Below, piece by piece: positions 210-40,284 of a stretch of DNA of 42,402 nucleotides. Position numbers and translations under genes: made by a program. Each line of letters opens with the position of its first letter. Position 1 is the first letter of the stretch. The notes beneath the pieces were generated by a model. The model had not been told where the DNA came from. It did no database searches and saw only the letters and a list, made by a program, of their open reading frames with translations. This DNA comes from Zoopage sp. CT-All (Eukaryota; Zoopagomycota; Zoopagomycetes; Zoopagales; Zoopagaceae): the NCBI GenBank assembly GCA_004114245.1, contig QZWS01000019.1:1-42402 (forward strand). Reading direction: 5' to 3'.

Positions 210-1463
210 CTAGAGGATTGTGAAACGAGGATGGTGACCAGAGTGTGCAAAGAAAGGCGACATCCCGGTCGACGCATGCGACGCGTTGTTGTAGGCGAAT
301 TCCGCGAGCGGGAGTAAGTCAACCCAGTCATCCTGGCGGTAGTTGATTGAACAGCGCAGGTACTGTTCCAAGATCTGATTGACCCGTTCGGTCTGACCGT
401 TTGATTGCGGATGATAGGCCGTGGACAAGCGGACCTTGGTGTCGAGCAACTTGAGTAGGCGGGCCCAAAACCTAGACGCAAATTGCGGTCCACGATCTGA
501 AATGACCTCGTCGGGCAGGCCATGCAGACGGATAACGTTGTCGAGAACAAGTCGGGCGGTGCCAGCGCTTGTAATCGTTTTATGGCATGGGACAAAATGC
601 GCCATCTTGGTCAAACGGTCTACCACCACAAGGATCACATCAAAACCATGTGACTTGGGTAGGTCCGTGATGAAATCCATACTGATAGACCCCCATGGCC
701 GCGACGGAACAGGGAGAGGTTGTAACAGGCCGTAAGGGGCATGACGGGGGGTCTTAGCTCGGGCGCAGGTTTCGCAAGACTGAATGTAATTGCGCACGAA
801 CTCGGCTTGACCAGGCCAGTTGGTAACGCGGCGGACGAGATCCAGGGTCATGTTGATTCCACGATGACCGGCAGCGTGCGCATTGTGGCATTCTTGTACG
901 AGGCGATCGGCATCAGAGAGTTCGGTGGTGGCGGCTTTGTCGGGGTGCGGCTGTGCAGATACGGCGACAGCGTTGATTGCGGCGAGCATGAGATGGTCAG
1001 GAGGGATCAAGGCGGTGCGTTGAATAGAGAGCCGCTCATCCCCCTCTTGAGGAATGTAGTCTGCACGATGAGAAAGAGCGTCGGCCTTGCCATTATCAAC
1101 ACCTGCACAATACTGTATTACGTAGTCAAATTTGGCGAGGAAGAGGGACCAGCGTGCTTGTTGACAATTGAGTACGCGAGATTCGGAAAAATAAACAAGA
1201 TTCTTGTAATCGGTGAGTACGCGTACCGTGTGTCGAGCTCCAGCAAGATAGTGACGCCATTGTTCGAATGCAACGATGATGGCGAGGAGCTCTTTATTGT
1301 AGACGTCATAATTAATCTCAGCTGCAGTAAACTGGCGGGAATAAAAGGCAACTGGATGTGGTTGACCGCCATTTCCTATTTGTGTTAAGACAGCTCCTAA
1401 CGCGAAATCGGAGGCGTCCGTTTCTACAATAAACAGGCGGAAAAAGTCAGCGTGCGCGAGCAC
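210..1463 (-). pseudogene. pol: Pol, second part: RNase H and integrase (broken)
   Basis: This frame starts after a single-base frameshift near 1470. It shows an RNase H domain (ETDASDFALGAVL, later KELLAI and LTDYKNL), then the integrase zinc-binding region (HAAGHRG ... CETCARAK) and the catalytic core (SMDFITDLP, ISDRGPQF, and the E in AYHPQSNGQTERVNQ), the Asp/Asp/Glu set of retroviral-type integrases. It ends at a TAG (210-212) just after the HHPRFT block. In related elements this block is followed by a longer C-terminal tail or chromodomain; here only about 20 more codons can be followed before homology stops. Confidence 0.85.
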
Positions 1464-1549
1464 GGGGCTGAGGCGAGAGCATTCTTGAGGTTATCAAAAG
1501 CGGTTTGTGTTGTTGGAGTCCATTCGAAAGGGAAGTCATGTCGGGTCAG

Positions 1550-3028
1550 TCAGTTCAGTGGAGACGCCATCTCGGCATAGTCCTTCACAAAGTTGCGGTA
1601 AAAATTACCTAGTCCAAGAAAACTTTGAACTTCCTTGACGGAACGAGGCGCTGGCCAGTTGCGTATCGCTTGAACTTTGCCGGGATCCATGTCGGTGCCA
1701 TTTTTCGTAACGCAATAGCCAAGAAAGTCTATAGAAATTTTGTCGAACATGCACTTTGACAACTTGGCGTAGAGGTTATTTGCAATCAACTTTTCTAGTA
1801 CCAGGGCGACGTGACGGTCATGTTCTTGTTGGTTTGCAGAGAAAATCAAGAGATTGTCTACGTATGCGACAACGAAGACGTCCAAATACTCGTGCAGAAC
1901 ACACTGAATCATATTCTGGAAGACAGCTGGGGCATTACACAGACCGAAAGGCATGACTGTGTATTCGAAGAGACCGTGTCTTGTGCGAAACGCGGTCTTC
2001 CATTCGTCCCCCGGGCGAACACGGACAAGGTGGAAAGCATCGCGCAGATCAATTTTCGTAAAGACTCGGGCTGATGAAAGACGGTCAAGCAAGCTTGGAA
2101 TCAGAGGCAGCGGGTATCTGTTCTTGACCGTGATTTCGTTCAGCTTACGATAGTCTACGACCGGTCGCAGATTACCATCTTTCTTTGATACGAACATGAG
2201 TGGAGATGACGCTGGAGACTTTGATGGGCGGATAGATCCACGTTCGATGCCGTCAGCAAGATATTTTTTCAGAACCTCGTCCTCTTCAAGCGTGAGGTTG
2301 TAAATGGGGCCCCAAGTCGGTTGCTTGTCCGGCATCAACTCGATGCAACAGTCAAACTCGCTAGATACTGGTAATGCATCGATGCGATCCTCGGTAAATG
2401 CACGTGTGTACGAATGGTATTTAGCGGGGAGTTCGGCGCAAAGCGAGTCGTGATCTGAAGGTAGTTGCGGCTGGGTGATTGGTATGACTGGTGGTGGGGA
2501 CTTGGGCATTGTCAGTGACAGTGTAGACCAGTTGACAACGGGCTCATATCGTTGGAGCCAGGGTAACCCAAGGACAATCGACAGGGTACATGGCCATACC
2601 AGGCAGTCGGCCGGGGTTTCACTGTCCTCAAACTGAAATGGTACGTCAGGCACGTATGAATCAGCCGGAGGCGTGGCTAGTGCCTGGCCATTGAGCGCGT
2701 AGAAGGAGACTTTTTGTGGTAGACTCGCCGGAGTCAATCCAAACTCGCGAACAAGAGAGGGGGCGACAATGTTGTAGGGAGCACCAGTATCGACGAGAGC
2801 ACGAACGCGGATGGGCGGTTTATTTCCGACGCTGAGCTTAACGAATGCGATGAATGAAGGAGATTGGTCTGGAGAAGCGAAAGCTTTAGTATTTAACCCG
2901 AACAGTGCGACCTTCACTGCCGGGCCGGGGCTTTTCCCGAGGGACCATTTCCTGCAAACCGAGACCGAAAAGGCGGAGCATTGGGACATTCGGATGTAGG
3001 ATGTCCGGATTCTCCACAATACAAGCAA
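1550..3028 (-). pseudogene. pol: Pol, first part: aspartic protease and reverse transcriptase (broken)
   Basis: The N-terminal part has a retropepsin-like site (DTGAPYN). The rest is a Ty3-type reverse transcriptase with the expected blocks: the KKDGNLRPVVDYRKLN region, the KIDLRDAFHLVR palm block, MPFGLCNAPAVFQ and then the catalytic box. The catalytic box reads YVDN instead of YVDD, so the second catalytic aspartate is replaced. The frame ends at a TGA at 1550-1552; Ty3-like codons continue after it in the same frame (HDFPFEW...), so this is a premature stop and not a natural end. It is read from the -1 frame relative to Gag. Confidence 0.85.
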
Positions 3029-3864
3029 AGGTTATTCAGTCGACGTCGGTCCTTTTCTTCTTGGGATAGTGGGCCACGCGGTCCGGGTGTACCGGGCGGG
3101 CGAGGCCCAGAAGGGGGAGGACGGGGTGCAGACGACCGTTCTTGGCGGCGCTCTAGGACGCGATGGTAGCACCGAGTTGCACGGTCGATGGCGTCTGTGA
3201 GTGACACGGGAGAGTCGGCCATGAGAGCGATCATATCCTTTACTTCAAAGGAGAGGCCGTCCAGGAAACGATCGAGAAGAGCATCATCGCTCCATTCCGC
3301 GTCGATGGCGTGACGACGGAACTCAATAGCGTAGTCGGAGACAGATCGTGATCCTTGGCGGATAGAACGTAGCGCTTGTCTGGCCGAATCCCGACGGTTC
3401 GGATCATCGAACATTTGCTGTAGTTCTTTAATGAAGACATCGTAACCGCGCAGCAACTCCGGTCCAGACGTTTCGAGCGAGGAGAACCAAGCAAGGGCTT
3501 GGCTCGACAGCAAGGTACCGATGAAGGCGACCTTCTCGGAGTCGTTATAGGAGTACGACGACAAGGAGAAGTATAGCCCGACCTGTGCTAGGAATCCGCG
3601 CAGGGCTGATCGAGTACCGTCAAAACGTTCCGGTGTTGGTGGCTTCGGGCGGTGATTCGGATGCGCTGGGATGTCTTGGAGGACCGGGCCCGCTTGCCCG
3701 GCCTGGATTCGAGAGATCATCGCCTCCAAGTCGGCGATAGAGATCTGTACCAATCCCGGCGTCGTTTGTTGGGGATCGGCGGACATAGAGCGAGTAACAC
3801 GGCGATCAGTGGGGTTGGGCAGAGGAGCAGAGGGCGAAGTTGGAGTGTCGGGGAGAGAGGTCAT
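2914..3864 (-). CDS. gag: Retrotransposon Gag-like capsid/nucleocapsid protein
   Basis: About 316 residues from the first in-frame ATG at 3864. The middle shows a retrotransposon Gag capsid pattern (aromatic-rich segment around FLAQVGLYF and the AWFSSLE stretch). The C-terminus carries one zinc knuckle of the form C-X2-C-X4-H-X4-C (CLYCGESGHPTSEC), which binds RNA. A Pro/Arg-rich linker precedes the knuckle. The frame itself is open, unlike pol. The last 115 nt overlap the pol frame (up to 3028), consistent with -1 frameshifting to make Gag-Pol. No confident slippery site was assigned. Confidence 0.8.
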   Translation of the reverse strand: MTSLPDTPTSPSAPLPNPTDRRVTRSMSADPQQTTPGLVQISIADLEAMISRIQAGQAGPVLQDIPAHPNHRPKPPTPERFDGTRSALRGFLAQVGLYFSLSSYSYNDSEKVAFIGTLLSSQALAWFSSLETSGPELLRGYDVFIKELQQMFDDPNRRDSARQALRSIRQGSRSVSDYAIEFRRHAIDAEWSDDALLDRFLDGLSFEVKDMIALMADSPVSLTDAIDRATRCYHRVLERRQERSSAPRPPPSGPRPPGTPGPRGPLSQEEKDRRRLNNLCLYCGESGHPTSECPNAPPFRSRFAGNGPSGKAPARQ

Positions 3865-4020
3865 ACAACGAGGGGGTCGCGCCAATCTGTGATGACCGAA
3901 CGAGGAGGAAGTCAGAGACGAACAGAGGAGAGAGTCAGAGGCAGAGACGGAGGCAGGATCAAGAGGCTGTATTCGGCGCAACACTGGTGTTGGCGCGACA
4001 AGGAGAAAAGTGGGCGCCAA

Positions 4021-4541
4021 CCAAACCGGGCCGGACTATTACCATTACAGTCTGCAATCCAAACAGCCTTAAATATAGCCATCACTCTTTAAGAATATCA
4101 CAGATAATTAGAATACACCAGCTACTTTTGAATGTCATCATTTGTTAAGAAACATTGCTAACAGTCAGACCAAAAGAGGTATATATATAGCCAAGACATT
4201 TTTTACTCACTGCTATATAGCCACACCCAGATATACTACATAGCAATATAATACTGTTCTGTATAACCACACCCAGATTGTCATTTCAACACCATTCAGC
4301 AGTATAAGATATTTATGACCTCATGGCCTTACAAAATAGTACTGCATCTTCTTGCCTACATCTCAACGATCTTGCCCAATTGTCCATTTAGCTGACAGAT
4401 CGGCAATTTCCCAATCTGTCCAAATCGAGGAGCCACGTGGCCAACCAAGCCCAACATCATAACCTCAATCACATCCCAACAAGACAACATCCCCACCAAA
4501 TCAGCCACACCAAATCCACCATAAGCAATAGAAAGACCGAA
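4021..4541. other. Non-coding stretch upstream of the secreted-protein gene, possible LTR remnant
   Basis: No gene is visible. The stretch is AT-rich (for example TATATATAG at about 4183-4191) and holds two copies of a 20-mer of the form CT(A/G)TATA(G/A)CCACACCCAGAT at 4213-4232 and 4259-4278. Because it lies directly upstream of gag, part of it may be a decayed 5' LTR. The distal part probably includes the promoter and 5' UTR of the gene starting at 4542. Confidence 0.4.
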
Positions 4542-5705
4542 ATGCATCTTCATCTCGCGAACCCATATGTCGCCCTCGCCCTGCTCCTTGTCGCCTTTGC
4601 CGCGGCTCCTACAACTGCTTCCCTTCTCTCAGCTTCTCGCGGCCATGAGATCCACCACAGCAATGAAAAAGCCCTTGCCAACCTGGATCTCGTCGAAGCC
4701 AAAAAGTTCAGCGAGCACCATGCTGTTCCCCCCACAGCGTGGACCCCCAATCTTGTCCATCGGATATTCGTCAACACCCTCAATACCCCCCTCCACAAAC
4801 TGGACATGCAGTACGTCGTTGCTGCTTCCACCATTCTGCCGCTCGCCGGATATGTAGGCAAAGGAGCAAACCAGCTTGATATACGCCAACTGCAGTTGAC
4901 ACCGCAGCAGATGCTGACGCTGCTAGCCCTGGTGAATTTAGACAGCTCGTCTACAAAGGTCGATAATACCGCTGTGCCTTCGCAGGCGACCTCATGGGGC
5001 TGGTCGTCTATGCTATCATGGGGATCTGCTGCCACCAAGCCATCGATTTTGTCGTATTTCAAGATTGTTGATGAAGTGGACCTACTAACTTCTGCGGCCA
5101 CGACTGCCAAGTCCGCTGAAAAGGCCGTTGCCGTGCAAAGAATTATTCTGGGATACATCCGCGCCCGGCATGCTCACGTGGTGAATGCCACAAGGCCCTT
5201 GCGAGTGACGATAGGGTTGCCCATCGACAAGTTACAAGCATTTTTACGCGTGATGCCAGACACTGTCCCCCTTGAAAATGGCCATCACCCACTTCTCCAT
5301 GACATTTGTGTCTCAAGCGCCGTGTTCCTATACGCTGCGTGCATTTTTTCCACGGACTTGACTGCACTCGTCGGTCGTGCATACAACTGGATGTGTGCAG
5401 ATGAAAAAGGACCACCACCAGCACGCTTGACTTCAGTGGAATTCTTCTCCACTTTAGATGTAACCCCGAAAGTATTGATCGAACGCATAGGATTCACCAT
5501 CTATCCTTTCAGCCAACGACATTGTCTTGCAGGTAAAGCTCTGCAAGCGGTAATGGATAACCTAAGTCTCAAATCCGAATACCTGATAACGGCTTGGAGG
5601 ACGTGGCTGGAGAACTGCCAGAAAAGCTATTTAAGTTCTTCTCAAGTTCCCGTGACCTCGAGTGATCCCGGTCTCGAAAACTGGACGCTAGTTGACAAGC
5701 AGTAA
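4542..5705 (+). CDS. Orphan secreted protein, 387 aa
   Basis: From the ATG at 4542 the protein opens with a short polar stretch and a strong hydrophobic core (VALALLLVAFAAA) ending in small residues around TASLLS, a classic secretory signal peptide. The mature part has no family that I recognise. It is mixed alpha-helical in appearance, with a Trp/Ser segment (SWGWSSMLSWGS) near residue 150, several Cys in the second half, and no C-terminal hydrophobic tail, so a soluble extracellular or vacuolar protein is more likely than a GPI protein. No introns are needed. It sits next to a dead transposon and faces the receptor gene tail-to-tail. Function unknown; the call rests on an intact frame plus signal peptide. 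Confidence 0.7.
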   Translation: MHLHLANPYVALALLLVAFAAAPTTASLLSASRGHEIHHSNEKALANLDLVEAKKFSEHHAVPPTAWTPNLVHRIFVNTLNTPLHKLDMQYVVAASTILPLAGYVGKGANQLDIRQLQLTPQQMLTLLALVNLDSSSTKVDNTAVPSQATSWGWSSMLSWGSAATKPSILSYFKIVDEVDLLTSAATTAKSAEKAVAVQRIILGYIRARHAHVVNATRPLRVTIGLPIDKLQAFLRVMPDTVPLENGHHPLLHDICVSSAVFLYAACIFSTDLTALVGRAYNWMCADEKGPPPARLTSVEFFSTLDVTPKVLIERIGFTIYPFSQRHCLAGKALQAVMDNLSLKSEYLITAWRTWLENCQKSYLSSSQVPVTSSDPGLENWTLVDKQ

Positions 5706-6182
5706 TCTTGGTCGTTCACCTATATATATTCCTCAAGACCGGTTGCCATTCGCCATAGGATGGGTCTTGTCGCTGATTATAAGCCACAGCACTCTTTCCG
5801 CTTGTTGATCAGCTGCCCCAATCAATCCTAACTAAAGCCACTCAATCCATCCAAAATACACGCCATTTGTTGATCAGAACCATATATTCATTCCAATGTG
5901 CCTTGAATCACTGTTATGGCCTGGTGCTAGTATTGTCATCCGTCTCTATTACGCACCAAATGGTTGGATAATACATAATGAACATCTGGGGTATCATACA
6001 GGAGGTTATGAAAAGGAGAGATAGCAAATTGTTTTCGCTGACTTGTATATTAGGATTGAAGCCATGCAGCTGCCTATGATGAAGCACCACATCTACGTCT
6101 GAAATTTCAGCGAGAGTATTCATGTGTCAGATTCAAGCGAGGGACGAGTTTTCTGGAGTAAAACACACCGAGCTGACCATTT
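5706..6182. other. Convergent intergenic region, no gene seen
   Basis: This 477-bp AT-rich gap separates the 3' ends of the secreted-protein gene and the receptor gene. It contains TATATATA just after the stop (about 5721-5728) and two copies of TTGTTGATCAG (near 5803 and 5867). Nothing with coding potential is visible; it most likely holds the two 3' UTRs and polyadenylation signals. Confidence 0.5.
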
Positions 6183-7901
6183 CTATGGCGAAAACACATC
6201 AGACCCTCGCCTTACTATTGCTCCTGCTGTGCTATCCACGCTCGGGCGATGTACAGTCTGGAAGCTAACACGCTGGCTAATAGCGTCTGCACTCGGACTA
6301 ACGTCCATGGACAGTGGATCATCGTCCAGGTCCGAGCCGACTGCCATTGATGACATCTCTGATGCACTATCATCACTCTGATTGCGACGAGCACTGAGGT
6401 AATGCTTAGGTGACGCATGACCGCCTTCCGGGCCTGTACCATTACGCAGCGTGGGCAAAGGCGCGTTTTGTTGCTCGAGAAGTAGCAGACGTCGTTCCGC
6501 CCAAGTCATAAGCCGGCCCGTCGGGGTGTGCGCCTTGGATGCACGGCGCGTCATAGTGCTGAGATCGGCAATCACCATGCGGCCACTGGCGGGTGTGCCG
6601 TTTTCTGCGCGCAATGTACTCGAGGTGACGTTATCTCTGCTTGGCCGTTTGCTGGCAGGTAGCGTCCTTTCGTCAGCACTGGATGAGCTCTCGTCGCTGT
6701 TTGACTGGTCGATGTCTGGTCGCCATACTTCCTCCAGGCCAGCCGAGGAAAGCATCCGAGACCGCTTGGTGCTCATCCTACGTTGTCTTTGCCCAGCAAA
6801 GGACTCGCTACTGTTTCGCGCAAGCGGCGAATCGGGAGCATTGAAGGTGAGAAACGGAGACATGGGCGGGGCCGACGGGTTACTTTCCTTGCGGGTAGTT
6901 GCGGCGGCAGCGAGCGCTCTGGGCGTCCCAGGCCTGAGATAGGTAAGGAAGAAGAGGACGATGAACCCGACAAAGCCGGCCAGTGGCGAAAAGATGGCTT
7001 GGACCAGGGACCAGCCGAGCGAAAATTCCTCAAAAGTCGGCTTGCGCATTTCAGGCATGACGGCGGTGATGATGGTGAAGTAGAGCCGCGAGATGAATGT
7101 TGGGATCCATATGGCAAGGAGCATGACGAGAAGGTAGATGACCGCAGCCCGGGCATACGGGCGGGCAAACTTGTTGGTGGAGTACAGACTCGCGCGCGGT
7201 TTGGCCATTGACGGGGAGGGCGGCAGATTGAACGTGCTTGGACGACGAAACAGGGACATCTTGCGCTCGGCCATGTGGCCAAGAGCAGAGAGCTCGCTGG
7301 CAGCCTCGGCTTCGGCATGAGTGGACCACAAGTAGAGGGCAATGGGCGCAACGGCTCCAACAATGATGACGGCCACGAGCAGCATGGGAATCAGCGATGA
7401 GAGCAGCCGGATTTCAGGATACTGGGTCGAGATCCAGCACCATGTGACGTTGCGCGCGAACAAAGGCGGTGAGTCGGGCAGCCGAGTCCACAGGAGCGAG
7501 GGAAGGAGGGACACACCGCCAAGGATCAAGACAGCTACCAGCGCTTGATACTCGGCAATTTTGACATTCCTGCGCTTCGAGTACCCGAAAAACGAGACGG
7601 CGACGGCGAGGTAGGCGATGACGGCAAGCCATACGTTTGCCGCGATATCCATCACCTGCATGATCGAGCCAACGACGGTGCAGCCCACGGTACCTTCCAC
7701 TCCCGGCACCAGCTTCATAACGGTAGCGGGAGTCAGGAGGAGGGCATGGATGAAGATGGATCGAGAAAGAGGGACGCGGTGGAAGCGGGGCAAGAACAGG
7801 AAGCACGAGATCGTGGCGACGCAGCCGAGGAGGCCGCCGACGGCACATACGCGTGCAAGGATTTGCACTGCAGCGATTTGGTCACGCAGTGTCGAGTCCA
7901 T
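6183..7901 (-). CDS. Seven-transmembrane GPCR-like receptor (cAMP receptor / Git3-like)
   Basis: A 572-residue intronless frame starting at an ATG (7901). The first ~330 residues contain seven hydrophobic segments (beginning CAVGGLLGCVATISCFLFL, then SIFIHALLLTPATV, IAANVWLAVIAYLAVAVSFF, VLILGGVSLLPSLLW, LIPMLLVAVIIVGAV, AVIYLLVMLLAIWIPTF, FSPLAGFVGFIVLFFL). A Ser/Arg-rich third cytoplasmic loop (about 205-240) precedes TM6, and a ~230-residue Ser/Thr/Arg-rich tail follows TM7. That layout fits fungal receptors of the Dictyostelium-cAMP-receptor/Git3 superfamily, which sense nutrients or unknown ligands at the plasma membrane through G proteins. The tail is rich in basic-Ser motifs (RRAS, RRGS) that suit PKA or arrestin-type regulation. 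Subfamily and ligand are not determinable here. Confidence 0.75.
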   Translation of the reverse strand: MDSTLRDQIAAVQILARVCAVGGLLGCVATISCFLFLPRFHRVPLSRSIFIHALLLTPATVMKLVPGVEGTVGCTVVGSIMQVMDIAANVWLAVIAYLAVAVSFFGYSKRRNVKIAEYQALVAVLILGGVSLLPSLLWTRLPDSPPLFARNVTWCWISTQYPEIRLLSSLIPMLLVAVIIVGAVAPIALYLWSTHAEAEAASELSALGHMAERKMSLFRRPSTFNLPPSPSMAKPRASLYSTNKFARPYARAAVIYLLVMLLAIWIPTFISRLYFTIITAVMPEMRKPTFEEFSLGWSLVQAIFSPLAGFVGFIVLFFLTYLRPGTPRALAAAATTRKESNPSAPPMSPFLTFNAPDSPLARNSSESFAGQRQRRMSTKRSRMLSSAGLEEVWRPDIDQSNSDESSSSADERTLPASKRPSRDNVTSSTLRAENGTPASGRMVIADLSTMTRRASKAHTPTGRLMTWAERRLLLLEQQNAPLPTLRNGTGPEGGHASPKHYLSARRNQSDDSASEMSSMAVGSDLDDDPLSMDVSPSADAISQRVSFQTVHRPSVDSTAGAIVRRGSDVFSP

Positions 7902-22739: not shown

Positions 22740-25700
22740 CTACTGTGGCTTGTGCTTGCTGGCAATTTCGCTAATTACGTCGAAAACAACCCACGGAAAG
22801 GATACAAACGGCGTGTCGTGAGAATCGTTCTGGGTGCCTTCGCTGGAATAGGTCACATAGTACCATGCCGATGCCTTTTGAAAGCGCGCCATTTCTCGCT
22901 CTCTAGCATCGATCTCTTGGATCTGATCATCGAACAGCTTTCTGAACGTCTTCTCCAACAAATCGTAAACTTCCATACACTTTCGACGAATTTCCCATTC
23001 TTTCTTGACAGTTTTTGGGTACTTGACAATAAGCCCGGTGACAAACTCCATCTCTGATCGAATCCGATGCTGGTGCATGAACGAGCGAAGCTTGGCATCG
23101 TAGTCGAACTTGTCTCGCCGGGCTTGCTGGATAAATGACTCGTAGCCATCCACCAGTAGCCAGCTTACAGTCGCAGCTTCTTTTGACGACGGAACGAAAT
23201 CTCGAAGCTCAACCGACCGATAGATCTTGCCAATCACCGACTCTGACCTGTACGACGGCCTGTCATCCTTGCCCATGAAGTCGGGATAATGCTCGGGGCG
23301 CAACCGGGCAGGAAATGGCGTAGGCACACCAGACTTGGCAAAGTCGACAGCCGTGGAATGCATCTGAGCAAGGCGCAGGCATGCAGACTCATGCGGCCCG
23401 AGCGGGAGCTTGTCTGCAAGTGCCAAATGCGCATTTGCGATCATTCCAAGATTGTCATAGGTAATCTAACAAATGCCAACTGTTGAAGATGAGGAGCAGA
23501 CGTACGTAGTTGACAAAAAACTTCTTGATCTCCTCGATGGTAACGTGCTCTTCCTCAGGCTGCACCGGCTGAGAAACCATGGGCGCAACGGTACGTGTTG
23601 GAATCAGTTCGGGATCCCAAACAACCCTTTCAGGCGTAAGAGCTGCAGCACAAGCAAGGATGCGGCCTTACATGAATGTATCACCGTCAAGATCGCCACC
23701 ACTGAGCATGCTTGGGATGTCTCGCTCGCCAACTACACACAATTAAATCATGCAAATGCACTCGAGGTTTACCCTGGGGGAAAACAACCAGATTGTTGAG
23801 GTAGCCGAGGGATTCGCAAACGTCCACGGCAGTGAATACTTGGACGTCGCCAGGATGTAAGCAAGGATTTCTCGTCACCAATACCTTGCCTGTCAGCACG
23901 TGCGTTTCCGTCAGTCCAAGCGGATCCACGAACTGTACAAAAATCTCATCAGCCTTGAGCACAGATAGCTCATCCATCACTCCAAGTAGCACAACACCCT
24001 TGGGAACATTGATGCGCGTTCTCTGCTTCAGCTCTCGCAATTGGAATGCTCGGAGCAGGGTAAGGGCATCCTGCAAGAACACGTCCTTTGCAGCAAGCAA
24101 ACCACAGCGAATTTGGCTCGACAACTTGCGCACTATGGCAGGACTTTCAACAGACGAGCCAAGAACTTCAAACGCATCGCCAGGGGAGGTCAAAATGTTA
24201 TCCAAACGCTTGACCATCTGATCCTTTAGCTCTAACAGGCGACTTTTCCCAACGCCGAGGGAGGTGATCAATGTGATGACCTGTCGATTCATAAAGCACG
24301 GCATAAAATCAGATGCCCGCACCACCTCCAGATGGTTGCTGAAGCTATCGAACTTGGCCTGGCTCGGTCGAATGAGAACCCAATCGTCGTCAAGCGAAGG
24401 ATCCAGCGCCAACATTCCTTTTGCACCACCAAGTCGAAACTGAATAGCACTTGGAACGTACGATAGGCGCAGCGTCGATGCCACCTTATCGAGCAGATTA
24501 CGGCTAATGCGACCCACGCCATCGCTGAATACGTAGCCCTCTCGCTCCACGTCAGGGATACGCTGGATGTTTGGCAGTGGCAAATCCGCGACGAAGCGCG
24601 TATTTGAGAAGCATTGGCCCATCCGAGCGGCGCACTTGGCAGACGTTTTGATCTGAGAGAAGTCGCCCATCCAAGCCCGAATCTCGTTGGTCAAGAGCTC
24701 GGTTTCACGATTGTAGAGCAGCCGCTCTTCACCAACGATCGGCGCGAAAAACCAGCATGAATGCTCCCGCAGCTGACTTGCCGAAAACGCAAGGAATTCG
24801 TAAAAACGCCCAGCGATGTAAATCCCGTTTTGCAATACCTTGAAGATGCGATTGTGAATCTGCATATTCATTTCTTCGTGAGCACTGACGCGGTAGCCAT
24901 CCTCGTCGGTAAACTCAACGCGAAGGAAGCGATCGGTATAGTCGAAAAATCGTCGAAGAACGCGATTGGTCGTTTCCACGCCTCCAAGCTGCGGAAGAAT
25001 ACGAGTCGGGGTAATGATGATCTTGTTCACTAGCAAATACGCATAAGGAGACGCAGGAAAAGTGACCATGGCATCGTACCGCGACAGCAGTAGCGCGGCA
25101 ACTCCGTGCTAGACCCATCAGAAGGCGAGCCGGGTATAGGCTGCTGCAAGATACTTTGCAGAGTCATGGCTGGATCTAGCAAGGATGGCGGAGATAGTAG
25201 CATTTGCTCCAGCGACATCATGATTAATCGGTTTGCTTTGTTGTGTGGATCATCACGCTGAAGGGCATCTTTGATTTTCTGCAGAAACGGCTGCGTCATT
25301 CTTCGCTCGGGGACGTGGCCAGAGGAGATTAAGCACTCAAGAAGATATCGCACTGAAAAATCGAACCCGAACGAGTCAAGATCCAGCAGTGGCTCACTTT
25401 GCTCGGTGACAAGCGACGGTGGCACGCGCGATACACTTGGCGACCATGTCGTGATAAGCGAGTGGTAGTGTGCATCCGTGTTCTGCCGCAGAACCCAGCG
25501 CAGTTTTGCTAGCGACGCTCCGGTGAATTCCAGGGCATAGGCTGTCCAGTGCCCGAGATGAATGCGCCTGGGGTCACGCGTGGTTGGATCCAGGCGCACG
25601 TTCTCATTCTCAGGCCGGCGATCCTTCCACATCTCTGCAACACGACGCCATTCATCGCCTGCGCGATACGCAAAAGGGTCTTTGATGTTTCTGAGACGAA

Positions 25701-35071: not shown

Positions 35072-35568
35072 GTGTGCTGGCTGCTGTTGCAATGCACCGT
35101 TGCAATGCGCAGGCTATATTACTTCTCGGCGACCGTCTCCCGCGCAACACGCTTCCTGGGGATTGAATTCGAATCACGGCTGTGTCTGATGCACTGGCGT
35201 GACCGCTTCTGGCCACTCAGGGAGTAGGGTCGTGAAGCAAGGCACTTCCCATGGCGGTGCAGAAAGCGGAGACGTGGGAGCGAATCATGATGCACTGCGA
35301 CCAACAGCACCCACATCCCGCTCTCAGACACGGCTGCGTTCACTGCCAGCCCGGCGCAGCATCCTGGCCGCAGCGCACATCCCCGCGCTGTGCGGCACCC
35401 ACTCTGCTGGCGAGCAGTGTTTGACGCCTGTCCACTTTCGGACAGGCCATGCATGCCCTCTGCTCAACTCCTTCACTCTCGCCGCATCCCTGTGTCCCCG
35501 CCTTCCCCGCCTCCCTCGCCCCTTTCTCGCACCCATTCCCGCTCTCTCAGTCTAGATCCGCACCGATC
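35072..35568. other. Intergenic region, promoter and pyrimidine-rich leader of the GPI-protein gene
   Basis: No gene is seen. From about 35456 to 35555 the plus strand is strongly C/T-rich (Pro/Ser-coding by chance in several frames), which looks like a pyrimidine-rich 5' UTR/promoter tract of the gene starting at 35569. Confidence 0.45.
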
Positions 35569-36231
35569 ATGCTTCTTTCTCGCACTGCCATACTTCTCGG
35601 TCTCTTCGCCGCCCTCCCTGCCGCCGTGCTCGCCGACCTCTCCATCACCTTCCCCGTCGCCGGCTCCTCCTGGTCCCCCTCGACTGCCGCCTCCATCTCT
35701 TGGGCACCCTTCCCCGCCGGAGCAACCTACGATTCCGCCAAGACTTATGCCGTCGATCTCATGCGCGGCAATCCCCAGGCCTTGGTGCTCGTCGCCACCC
35801 TCGCTCAGAGCGTGTCCGAGGCCCAGGGCGGACTGAGTGGGATAAGGCTGCTGGGCGATTGGGGCAGTGGGAATGATTTCGTGGTGCGTGTCGGCGATAA
35901 GTACTCGCACGCGTTTGGCATTTATCAGACCTCGGCTGGGGGCTCGCCGGCCCCGCCGCCCCCCGCTGCTCCCGGCAACAGTGGTCTAAATGGCCGGCCT
36001 GGACAGGGTGTAGTGGGAGGCAGTGGTTCTGCGAATGGCACCTTGGGTGCGCCAGGGACCGTGCCCGGCCCAGGCGCCCCAGGCGTCAGTGCCACAACTC
36101 CCGGTGCGCCGGCTCCGCGCATCACCACCACCCCGGCGGTGAATAGCTCTGCTGCTGCTGTGGAACGGTCCGGGTCTACGATTGCGGTTGCCGCGCTTGT
36201 CCCCATTATTGTCGGAGTCTGGTGGCAGTGA
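35569..36231 (+). CDS. Kre9/Knh1-like GPI-anchored cell-surface protein, 220 aa
   Basis: From the ATG at 35569: a signal peptide (LLSRTAILLGLFAALPAAVLA), then a ~95-residue beta-sandwich domain with the hallmarks of the fungal Kre9/KNH N-terminal family (DLSITFPVAGSSWSPSTAASISW ... VVRVGDKYSHAFGIYQ). A long Gly/Pro/Ala/Thr-rich linker follows, apparently for O-glycosylation. The C-terminus has small residues (NSSAAA), a spacer and a hydrophobic tail (STIAVAALVPIIVGVWW), as needed for GPI attachment. Such proteins locate to the plasma membrane/cell wall and are often abundant in hyphae or fruiting tissue; a role in beta-glucan assembly is inferred only from the family name. No introns. Confidence 0.82.
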   Translation: MLLSRTAILLGLFAALPAAVLADLSITFPVAGSSWSPSTAASISWAPFPAGATYDSAKTYAVDLMRGNPQALVLVATLAQSVSEAQGGLSGIRLLGDWGSGNDFVVRVGDKYSHAFGIYQTSAGGSPAPPPPAAPGNSGLNGRPGQGVVGGSGSANGTLGAPGTVPGPGAPGVSATTPGAPAPRITTTPAVNSSAAAVERSGSTIAVAALVPIIVGVWWQ

Positions 36232-36348: not shown

Positions 36349-38140
36349 CTACTGCCAGCCACTGACATAAGCTGAATCCAGCTGCAACACTACTGGATCA
36401 TCATCCTCGTCAACTTCGTCAGGTGTTTCTCCCACAGCAGTCCTTGGTCCATCCGGCTGTGCTATCCTAGGTTCTTCGGTATCATTAAATCCGCTTACAT
36501 ATGCGCTGTCCAGCTGCAGCACAACATGCTCGTCGTCATCTGCCACTTCGACCACTGCAGCAGCTTGAGCACCTGCCATGGTCTCCTCTGCATCGCCATC
36601 ACCGTGTCCTTCGACAACCCTGTGCAGCATGTGCCTTGCTTCACCAAGTTCTAGCCGTTCTGCGCAGGCCTCCTGCCAACATCCCTCCACCACACGACGA
36701 TACGCTCTCGGCACGTCGGAGGAAATAGCTTCCCTGGTACTGTTGACCAGGACATCAAAGACGAGGCTGACGTCGTTGCGGCCGCCAAACGGTCGTTTAC
36801 CGCTGGCAATTTCCCAGCAAAGCCATCCAAAGGAGTATATGTCCATGGCCTCTGTATAAGTCATCGATGGAGTGGACAGGCGCTCCGGTGCAATATAGGC
36901 AACAATCCCAATGACGCCGGTGTCAGTAGCTGTGGCAACATCTTTGTTGGACTTCGCCAAGCCAAAATCCGTGATCATTGGGCTGCCGTTCGCGTCCACC
37001 AGGACATTGCCAGAGTGAAAATCGCCGTGGAGGATGCCATCGCGGTGAATGAAGCCCAACCCGATAGCAATCTGCTCAGCGAGGAGTGCGCGCTGCGGCC
37101 ACGACAAGCGCGCGTGATATTTTGCGAGATAATCCACCAAAGACCCGTTCGCAGCATACTTCATGATCATGCCAGGTTGCCCGTCCTTGTCGTACATAAT
37201 GCCATGCAGCTTGACTACATAATCGCCGTCGTGTATGCGCTTCAACATGCGCACTTCCTCGACAAACGTGGACGCATCAAAGAGGTATTTGAGCACAACG
37301 GGAGTGTCGAGCCACGATGCACGCGACACGCTGCCGAACCCACCGCGACGGAGGAATTTCTCCACGCGCACCTGCGAGGCAGGGATCTCGCGCAGATGCT
37401 TTTGATCTATGGCGAGGCGCAGCCAGCGTTTTCGCTCATCCTCGAGCGTCAAGGCCGGGCGCTGCAACAATTCCAATGGGACGTGCTGCAGCGTGTCGAG
37501 TTCAGAGAGCTCCGTGTCGATCTGACGTCGGAGTTCGTTAAGAAGCGCACGCTGGCTTTCCACTGTCACCGGCTGCGGGCGCTCAACCATTGCACGGACC
37601 AGGGCATTTGCAGCTGCATCGAGGCGGGCGTGGATCTGGTTAAACGCCTGGCGGTCGGAGAATACCACCGCTTGGTTGGGCGGGCCGGGTCGAAGAGGAA
37701 GCATTTGCAGCTGAATCTTCACCTTGGCCTGCATTACTTGCTCCCCGAGAGCCTTGGACGCGGCGGCGAGGTCGCTGAGGTCATGGGTTTGAGAGAATCG
37801 CATCGGCTGCTTCTGAAGACGAATCTAGCCATCGATGTCGATGAACGCAAACTACCGGGGCTAATGGAGTCTACATCGAATTGAAAATAGTCGACCGCTA
37901 TTTGCTTGACACGGCGCATGATGGCCTCGCAGTCCCCGGCGTTCTGCTTGACGGCCCTGCACATCTGCTCGATGCTGAAGGCCTGCTGCTGACTCTCGGC
38001 CAATCAGTCAAGATGGCTCAAGGGAGGCAAAGCTACATGTTGACAGCATGGCTATGTGCATCGGCAGCCAGCGCGGAGATCTGCTCGGGCGTGAGGCCCA
38101 GGCTTGCGTCGGCTGCGGCTGCGGCTGCGGCTGCGGTCAT
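36349..38140 (-). CDS. Protein kinase (TKL/RIPK-like) with helical N-terminus and duplicated C-terminal motif
   Basis: Three exons (38140-38045, 37994-37875, 37824-36349; both introns 50 nt) encode 563 residues. The N-terminus is poly-Ala then a ~200-residue helical region (FSIEQMCRAVKQN ... DLAAASKALGEQ ... LRRQIDTELSELDTL). The kinase domain has a Gly-rich loop (RRGGFGSV, ~232-239), VVLK lysine (~251), catalytic loop HGDFHSGNVL (HGD replaces HRD, a non-RD kinase), intact DFG (~358-360) and APE. All catalytic residues are present, so it should be active. The C-terminal tail is acidic and contains VVLQLDSAYVSG twice (~506-517 and 550-561), the second at the very end. Divergent from the neighbouring pseudokinase gene, 73 bp between start codons. 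Confidence 0.85.
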
Positions 38141-38213
38141 GGCGAGATAGCCAATCGACGGAGCTTTTGCCACCTACCCCTGCCCCAGCACTTCCCTATT
38201 TACTGTGCCGCCG

Positions 38214-40284
38214 ATGGACTCGCTTCTCGAAGCCGGACATATTGTTGTACAGGTCGGTACGATCGTCGGCGATCTTGTCCCCGTCCCTTTCCTCGCCCAG
38301 GCGCTCAGCATCGTCGCAGGCATCGTCGCGCGGGCGGAACAGGCTGAGCACAACAAGGCCACCTGCTCGCGCCTTGCCGCCCGTGTCAAGATCGCAAACG
38401 ACACGATCGCGCAGATGCCGCGCCAGAATCTAGTCGACAATCCCGCGATGGAGGCGTTCGTGGTCGTGCTGAGAGACGTTTCGGTGTTTGTGGAAAAGGC
38501 CTCGCGGGTAAGCTCGTTCGTGCGGTGGCTCAACGCCGGCGAGGTCCGCAGCACGTTTGACTCGCTGACGTCGCGACTGGATATCTGCATTGCAGATCTT
38601 GGGCTGAATACGCTGGCAAGGACGAATCGGCAGGCGGTGGAGGATCGCGAGTGTCTGGACCGCGATATGGCCGAAATGCGCGTGTTTATGAGCTCGATTG
38701 ACAATGGTCTCGCGAGCGTCGATAACAGACTCGAGGCGTTGATTGAGGTGGTCAGGTCGCGAGACGTCTCGCAGGATGTACTGGCCGCGTCGCGGATTGC
38801 GCCCAGTGAGCTGTCGGACGCCGATGCTGCCGACGGGCTGCCCGTTCGGCTTAGCCGGTCCGTCACGCGCCGCGTTTGGCGCTATCAAAACGTTGCGGAC
38901 AAGAATTTCGGCCCTGTCGATGGATCAATCCTTGATGAGCTGACCAAGGAAGTCGCGCTGCTCAGACAGCTGGAACAGTGCCAGTACGTCGTCAATGTCT
39001 ACGGCACTGCCCAGATCCATGGTCGGCTGCATCTCATCATGGAATACTACCAAAACGGTGCCCTGGACGAGTATCTTGCAAAAAGCTCCCTTGGATGGCC
39101 CGAGCGACTTGATATTGCGCTGGACATCGCCCGCGGAATGTGCTTTCTCCACGAGGTTGGCATCCTGCACCACGACCTTCGCTCCGCCAATGTCTTGCTA
39201 AACGACCGCCTGCAGGTATTGACATTGTTTATAAAACTGTCTGTCTCACTGTCATGGTGATAGGCCAGGATAAGCAATTTCCGAACGAGCCGAACGGAGG
39301 AGGACGTATCGCGGTCGGTCGTGGATGACATGCAGCGTATTCGCTGGACCGCGCCCGAGAAGGCTAAAGATTCCAAGCTTGCGTTTTCCAAAAACTGTGA
39401 TGTGTACAGGTATGATCCTCTTGCTCCGTTGCCAATGCTCAGTCGATTTTAGTTTCGGCATGCTTCTGTGGGAGATTGCCTCTGGTGGTCCTCCCTTTGC
39501 CGCCTTGGATGCAATTCAGGCATATCGTAAACTCGTCACGGGCAGTCGAGAAGCGCCCCCGGCGGATACGCCGCCAATGTACGCTGAAGCGATGCAAAGC
39601 GCATGGTGCTCCGAACCGCAGAAACGGCCGACTATGAGCGAGCTTTTCCTGAAACTAAAAGGCGCCAAGGATAGCTACAAGCCGCATCCATTCCCACCTA
39701 CTACCCTTGCGTCCACTTCTGCAGCTGTGAATGCTCCTGGATTAGATTTCGAGGATGACTTTGAAAATCTTCGAATCGGCGATGACCTTGATGACGAAAG
39801 CGAGGCACTCCCGCCTCTCGCCGACGGCATTCAAGCGCATAATGCAAAAGACCATGATCGCGCTTGGGGCATCTTTCAAGGGCATACCGATCGCAACGAT
39901 GATCTGAACGCCATGTACTGGGTTGCATATTATCTCTATCGCGGTCTCGGCAGCCAAGAAATGAATGCCCAGCTTGCACTCAAGTTCTGGGAGCGCGCCG
40001 CAAATGCAGGCCAGCCCGACGCCCAGCTTCGATTCGGCGCGTGCCTGATGCAGGGCTCGGACGGTCTAACGCGCGATGTCCCCGGTGGCTTTGCATGGAT
40101 CAAGAAGGCCGCGGATCAAGGCAACATCGCCGCGCAATTCAACGTCGGCGATTTATACCGGAGTGGTCGTGTCAAGTCGGTTGGCAAGGACGATGCCCTT
40201 GGTCGAAAATATCTTGGTCTCGCGGCCAAACAAGGCCATCCAAATGCCAAGCAGATATGCGACAAGTGGCTGATCGGCTATTGA
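38214..40284 (+). CDS. MLKL-like four-helix-bundle / pseudokinase / Sel1-repeat protein
   Basis: Three exons (38214-39215, 39264-39409, 39453-40284; introns 48 and 43 nt) encode 659 residues. Residues 1-135 form amphipathic helices (IVVQVGTIVGDLVPVPFLAQALSIV ... AEHNKATCSRLAARVKI ... VVVLRDVSVFVEKAS) like the MLKL N-terminal/HeLo-type bundle. Helices at 140-185 resemble the MLKL brace. The kinase-like domain (~205-470) has no recognisable Gly-rich loop, the catalytic loop HHDLRSANVLL (Asp and Asn kept, Arg lost), and NFR in place of DFG (~339-341). APEK and WEIASGGPPFA follow. The C-terminus has about three Sel1-type repeats (WERAANAGQPDAQLRFG, IKKAADQGNIAAQFNVG, LGLAAKQGHPNAKQ). Probably a pseudokinase effector or scaffold in cell-death or stress signalling. 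Confidence 0.85.

Follow-up and report, generated by a model that had tools for sequence, protein, structure and literature searches.

The window analysed here, a whole stretch of 42,402 nucleotides (contig QZWS01000019.1, positions 1 to 42,402, of assembly GCA_004114245.1; 8,620,231 bases or 8.6 Mb in 419 contigs) from the fungus Zoopage sp. CT-All, contains two kinase-fold genes that are read in opposite directions from either side of an interval of 73 base pairs (bp). The plus-strand gene codes for a predicted pseudokinase with an N-terminus of the MLKL type and C-terminal Sel1 repeats, and the minus-strand gene codes for an active-looking TKL-group kinase. Both genes were modelled from open frames and frame-keeping GT-AG introns, which measure 48 and 43 bp in the former gene and 44 and 62 bp in the latter. 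An original prediction, made from the letters of the sequence, had placed two kinase-fold genes on opposite strands with starts 73 bp apart, and its coordinates, strands and spacing were all correct. The locus is composed as follows:

38214-39215, 39264-39409 and 39453-40284, plus strand: predicted MLKL-type pseudokinase gene of 3 exons and 659 amino acids, with frame-preserving introns
38298-38606, plus strand: MLKL_N domain (Pfam), residues 29-131
38352-38387, plus strand: motif N-x3-C-x2-L-x2-R-V at residue 47, inside the MLKL_N domain
38859-39684, plus strand: predicted pseudokinase domain, approximately residues 216-460, spanning both introns, without Gly loop and with VADK, HHD, NFR and APE
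39802-40281, plus strand: C-terminal region with three Sel1 repeats (PF08238; matches between 39910 and 40239)
38141-38213, no strand: the 73-bp interval separating the two predicted ATGs (38214, plus strand; 38140, minus strand), presumed to hold a promoter common to both genes
38140-38037, 37992-37875 and 37812-36349, minus strand: gene model of an active-looking TKL-group kinase, 3 exons, 561 amino acids
37390-38140, minus strand: N-terminal region, residues 1-215, introns included, carrying N-x3-C-x2-I-x2-R-V at 37908-37943
36610-37389, minus strand: kinase domain with Gly loop, Lys, HGD, DFG and APE (Pfam and motifs), residues 216-475
36490-36525, minus strand: tail motif, copy 1, 12 residues (VVLQLDSAYVSG), residues 504-515
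36358-36393, minus strand: tail motif, copy 2, the same 12 residues, residues 548-559, 2 residues ahead of the stop

The N-terminus of the plus-strand product had been described as MLKL- or HeLo-like, and it indeed matched MLKL_N (PF22215) at 28.3 bits, a score barely above the curated threshold of 27 bits, with E 1.4e-6 for a library of 24,736 models, while the reversed N-terminus, taken as a control, gave no MLKL_N match. When the whole assembly was searched in six frames at E <= 10, PF22215 matched this gene alone (28.5 bits), and neither HeLo (PF14479) nor PF17111 was found; PF14479 was also absent from the plus-strand protein at E <= 1, where MLKL_N was matched instead. Pairwise alignment revealed a significant similarity between this N-terminus and that of a JGI metagenome protein (P0015; score 58 versus 30.9 +/- 4.9 for composition shuffles, with 1 of 1000 shuffles reaching 58). 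This all-in-one protein contains ankyrin repeats, an MLKL-type-like bundle region and a kinase, and thus has the same order of bundle and kinase as the plus-strand product, but it differs in its intact kinase motifs, in having ankyrin in place of Sel1 and in not being labelled MLKL_N by Pfam at E <= 10. By phmmer, no relative of the plus-strand N-terminus was retrieved among the 240 proteins fetched, and two pattern scans of viral contigs gave 36 and 76 matches, none of which was confirmed as a relative. When residues 1-219 were modelled alone with AlphaFold, a helical structure was obtained (predicted local distance difference test, pLDDT, 63.5), with helices at residues 3-21, 24-43, 48-66, 77-96 and 100-107 and a long one at 111-182, a predicted layout that is compatible with a four-helix bundle followed by a brace. 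Adding one sequence gave a second model with a lower pLDDT (45.1), and the fold searches were run with the first. Foldseek found no match to the first model at E <= 0.001, either in the PDB or among viral structure models; a plant Rx coiled-coil chain (4m70_H) stood at Foldseek rank 50 with a non-significant E of 3.4, and the VIA-align matches were within the noise stated for bundles.

The kinase-like domain that follows (PF07714, PK_Tyr_Ser-Thr; 160.1 bits, residues 240-449) was matched only from profile position 45 onward, so that the part containing the Gly loop is missing. In addition, HRD is changed into HHD (residues 319-321) and DFG into NFR (residues 339-341). Nevertheless, Lys230 (in VADK) and Glu246 aligned with the catalytic Lys and the helix-C Glu of P0015 in a two-sequence alignment, because of which the domain looks only partly degraded, and in the same alignment Asp321 (of HxD) and Asn326 were retained. 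Judged from its sequence, the domain is a pseudokinase, although its decay is partial. Ser and Thr residues occur in its loop, in the stretch NFRTSR (NF-x-TSR). Sel1 (PF08238) was matched in three stretches (58.7 bits; cut-off 30.7). Pfam and motif positions hence agree with what had been claimed for this gene, namely NFR in place of DFG, no clear Gly loop, and Sel1 repeats.

The minus-strand product contained every motif that had been attributed to it, i.e. the Gly loop (RRGGFGSV, residues 229-236), the Lys (VVLK, 246-249), HGD (336-338), DFG (356-358) and APE (382-384). PF07714 matched at 135.8 bits, and the APH and ABC1 kinase-like families also exceeded their Pfam cut-offs in the same stretch. 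This product is therefore regarded as an active-looking kinase. Both partners of the proposed pair, an MLKL-like pseudokinase and an active-looking kinase, were in this way recovered as components: one product joins an MLKL-type N-terminus to a pseudokinase, and its neighbour is a TKL kinase in which all the catalytic motifs looked for are present. Whether they would work as a pair is weighed below.

The N-terminus of the minus-strand kinase was considered as a second MLKL_N candidate and rejected: it gave no Pfam match at E <= 10, MLKL_N included, its pairwise similarity to the plus-strand N-terminus was at chance level (161 of 1000 shuffles reached the score), and a two-sequence bundle profile failed to find it (-0.4 bits). 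Only a short helix motif, N-x3-C-x2-(L/I)-x2-R-V, is common to both N-termini, at residue 52 of the minus-strand and residue 47 of the plus-strand product. It falls within 10 residues of the plus-strand position in 3.5e-5 of shuffles, and of the 240 fetched proteins only P0015 has it; because the pattern was picked after both sequences had been seen, it is a hint only.

The C-terminal tail of the minus-strand kinase carries the duplicated motif VVLQLDSAYVSG, each copy being preceded by an acidic stretch. The two copies differ in 8 of 12 codons and 10 of 36 bases, and every change is silent; when 10 substitutions were placed at random, the 12 residues were preserved in 0 of 100,000 trials. This silent-only divergence points to strong constraint on the short stretch. 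A degenerate DNA pattern for the motif core, allowing at most one mismatch, matched the assembly at these two sites only, both without mismatch; the pattern read backwards, as a control, gave two matches as well, so that about two chance matches are to be expected at one mismatch. The repeats of HET-S are longer and imperfect, and the tail motif differs from them in its 12 identical residues. No match beyond chance was found between the tail motif and the plus-strand product. Similarly, a shared homotypic, RHIM-like motif (GHIVVQVGT in the plus-strand product, EHVVLQLDS in the minus-strand tail) was rejected, since shuffled and fetched sequences matched equally well: for copy 1, 712 of 2000 shuffled plus-strand sequences and 82 of the 240 fetched proteins matched as well or better, and for copy 2 these numbers were 1929 and 226. 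The RHIM-type core [ILV]Q[ILV]G was not found in the minus-strand kinase; the plus-strand product contains it once (VQVG, residues 12-15), as do 22 of the 240 fetched proteins.

Among 7,995 candidates scored in a protein search, 212 matched the plus-strand product with E <= 0.001, the best being a protein of Glomus cerebriforme (P0001; E 6e-39, 28% identity, 66% of the query). Like the plus-strand product, P0001 reads HHD, NFE-TSR (NF-x-TSR) and RWTAPEK; it differs in lacking, in its available sequence, an N-terminal bundle and in matching Sel1 only below the cut-off. Phylogenetic analysis of 37 kinase domains (the two genes of the pair, 23 further loci of the assembly and 12 proteins out of the 240 fetched) grouped the plus-strand domain with P0001, the closest kinase domain found for it (support 97/90), with P0015 next (83/79). 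Both genes of the pair fell in a TKL-type clade, which holds only 3 of the 25 assembly kinases included in the tree, these two among them, together with a plant kinase and two rows of animal RIPK1. A recent local duplication of one gene into the other is unlikely and was rejected, because the plus-strand kinase domain groups with P0001 and away from its neighbour. Once spliced, the two kinase domains scored 123 bits against each other, which exceeds the score of either against the 23 other assembly loci (at best 99.4 bits, plus-strand domain with a kinase on contig C224). When the minus-strand kinase was used in a six-frame search with exons scored apart, the C224 kinase (69.9 bits) scored higher than the plus-strand exons (51.3 and 26.9 bits). 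The product of the C224 gene (2700-5903, minus strand) is a TKL kinase whose motifs look intact, with many Sel1 repeats behind the kinase part; the gene may be truncated at its start, which is close to the end of the contig.

Like animal MLKL, the plus-strand product combines an MLKL_N-type domain with a downstream pseudokinase that lacks the Asp of DFG and has Ser/Thr in the activation loop; it differs in containing Sel1 repeats and in keeping Asp321 of HxD and Asn326. The animal RIPK3-MLKL pattern is not known to include Sel1 repeats. The minus-strand kinase differs from RIPK3 by the absence of a RHIM core. The fungal MLKL/Sel1 proteins of Glomeromycotina (TCDB 1.A.105; PMC8778642) resemble the plus-strand product in having a kinase-like domain followed by Sel1-type repeats; in the available portion of PMC8778642, MLKL-family homologues with Sel1 repeats are reported only from that group, and the available portion of PMC11476962 names an MLKL in Basidiobolus. 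Since its closest partner in the tree is the similarly built Glomus pseudokinase, the plus-strand gene belongs to this fungal class, which is already reported (PMC8778642 and PMC12881547, as available in part). The HeLo/HELL effectors with NLR amyloid signalling (HET-S/NWD2, HELLP) share with the locus the superfamily of membrane-targeting helical bundles and a gene-pair logic, and fungal bundles of this kind are tied to cell death, according to the accessible part of PMC12881547; here, however, the partner is a kinase instead of an NLR, and neither HeLo (PF14479) nor PF17111 was found in the assembly at E <= 10, as described above.

The reading preferred here, held tentatively and at somewhat less than an even chance, is that the plus-strand protein is an MLKL-type executioner whose bundle is held in check until an upstream kinase triggers it, with the minus-strand kinase as a candidate for that role. 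It is supported, within the limits of sequence comparison, by the degraded state of the plus-strand kinase domain next to an intact one, by the sole MLKL_N match of the assembly with its negative reversed control, by the N-terminal similarity to P0015, by the grouping with P0001, by the Sel1-bearing MLKL homologues reported from Glomeromycotina and by a NACHT-WD40 receptor-like gene elsewhere in the assembly. The plus-strand protein would then consist of a membrane-targeting helical bundle restrained by the pseudokinase and Sel1 repeats, in which membrane action and auto-inhibition are assumed from the family. An upstream kinase may phosphorylate Ser/Thr of the NF-x-TSR loop, which would free the bundle and lead to membrane damage. 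The minus-strand TKL kinase, whose gene starts across the 73-bp interval, would be the most convenient candidate for this role, and its duplicated tail motif could serve as a docking or assembly element. A self-contained, kinase-triggered and necroptosis-like module of two genes in a fungus, comprising a TKL kinase, an MLKL-type executioner, one short promoter and docking or assembly through the tail motif, is unlikely as a whole. If true, the activator-executioner logic of RIPK3 and MLKL would exist outside animals too, and without RHIM amyloids. Fungal MLKL-like pseudokinases have been reported already, and the literature on fungal MLKL, as far as its text was available, describes no activating kinase for them. 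The head-to-head placement of the one MLKL-type gene detected and an intact TKL kinase offers a small and direct test of kinase-triggered necroptosis logic outside animals.

Several results weigh against an executioner and its activator at this locus. Regarding the bundle, residues 1-260 of the plus-strand product had no relatives at E <= 10 among 6,595 candidates, and the N-terminus matched no PDB sequence at E <= 1. Exon 1 did match 22 PDB sequences at E <= 1e-8, but these were tyrosine and other kinases, matched through the kinase part, and none was MLKL. Furthermore, no MLKL chain occurred among the best 50 of 227 Foldseek rows or among 50 VIA rows, with a model of modest confidence, which, for such a model, does not exclude an MLKL fold. 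Regarding the pairing, the minus-strand kinase is not the sister of the plus-strand domain in the tree but lies elsewhere in the same TKL-type clade, with no firm placement there, and the closeness of the two genes says little by itself, because the neighbouring long open frames, which are probable genes, are equally near: only 117 bp separate the left one (35449-36231) from the pair, and 48 bp the right one (40333-42144).

Nearly as likely as the executioner reading is that the two genes are chance neighbours, a fungal MLKL/Sel1 protein of known type beside an unrelated TKL kinase in a gene-dense stretch, without a common pathway. Besides the tight spacing of the flanking frames and the grouping of the plus-strand domain with the Glomus protein instead of with its neighbour, this is favoured by N-termini that are not significantly alike and by the lack of a shared short motif beyond chance in the shuffle tests given above. 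It accounts less well for the position of both genes in a clade with so few of the assembly kinases, for the helix motif at a nearly equal position in both products, and for the mutual score of the spliced kinase domains, although the last point is weakened by the lead of the C224 kinase when exons are scored apart.

Rather improbable is a non-lethal role, in which the plus-strand bundle would serve self-assembly or membrane tethering and the Sel1 repeats and pseudokinase would act as scaffold to the adjacent kinase, with no cell killing involved. As modules of protein-protein interaction, Sel1 repeats would fit such a scaffold; the partly retained kinase residues would suit nucleotide binding or an allosteric role, and the C224 gene provides an active-looking TKL-Sel1 protein in the same assembly. 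On the other hand, MLKL_N takes its name from a killer domain, and the link of such fungal bundles to cell death in the part of PMC12881547 mentioned above speaks for a lethal function. Finally, an old inverted duplication, by which one ancestral bundle-kinase gene at this place gave rise to both genes with later divergence in sequence and activity, is very improbable: each spliced kinase domain resembles the other more than it does any further locus compared, and the N-termini have the helix motif in common, a motif picked after being seen, but the tree joins the plus-strand domain to P0001 and then P0015 with the minus-strand kinase outside, and the bundle profile misses the minus-strand N-terminus.

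Neither flanking open frame had a Pfam match. The product of the left one (35449-36231, plus strand) is small, secreted-looking and rich in Ser, Pro and Gly, and presumably resembles Kre9/GPI-anchored proteins. NB-ARC was not found in the assembly at E <= 0.001. One NACHT match was above the cut-off (contig C173, 33.3 bits) and two weaker ones were below it; the former lies in a 1556-residue frame (1641-6308, minus strand) with an ARM-type region, NACHT and many WD40 repeats, a candidate NLR-like receptor judging from its domains. Elsewhere in the window, retrotransposon pieces with reverse transcriptase, RNase H, integrase and aspartyl protease domains occur at 213-3028 (minus strand), which we take to be of the Ty3 type. 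The gene content suggests a fungus, as it includes intron-bearing genes, Mss51 with its zinc finger and an RNA-dependent RNA polymerase; the polymerase (PF05183, RNA-silencing type) is spread over two or more open frames at 22743-25069 (minus strand).

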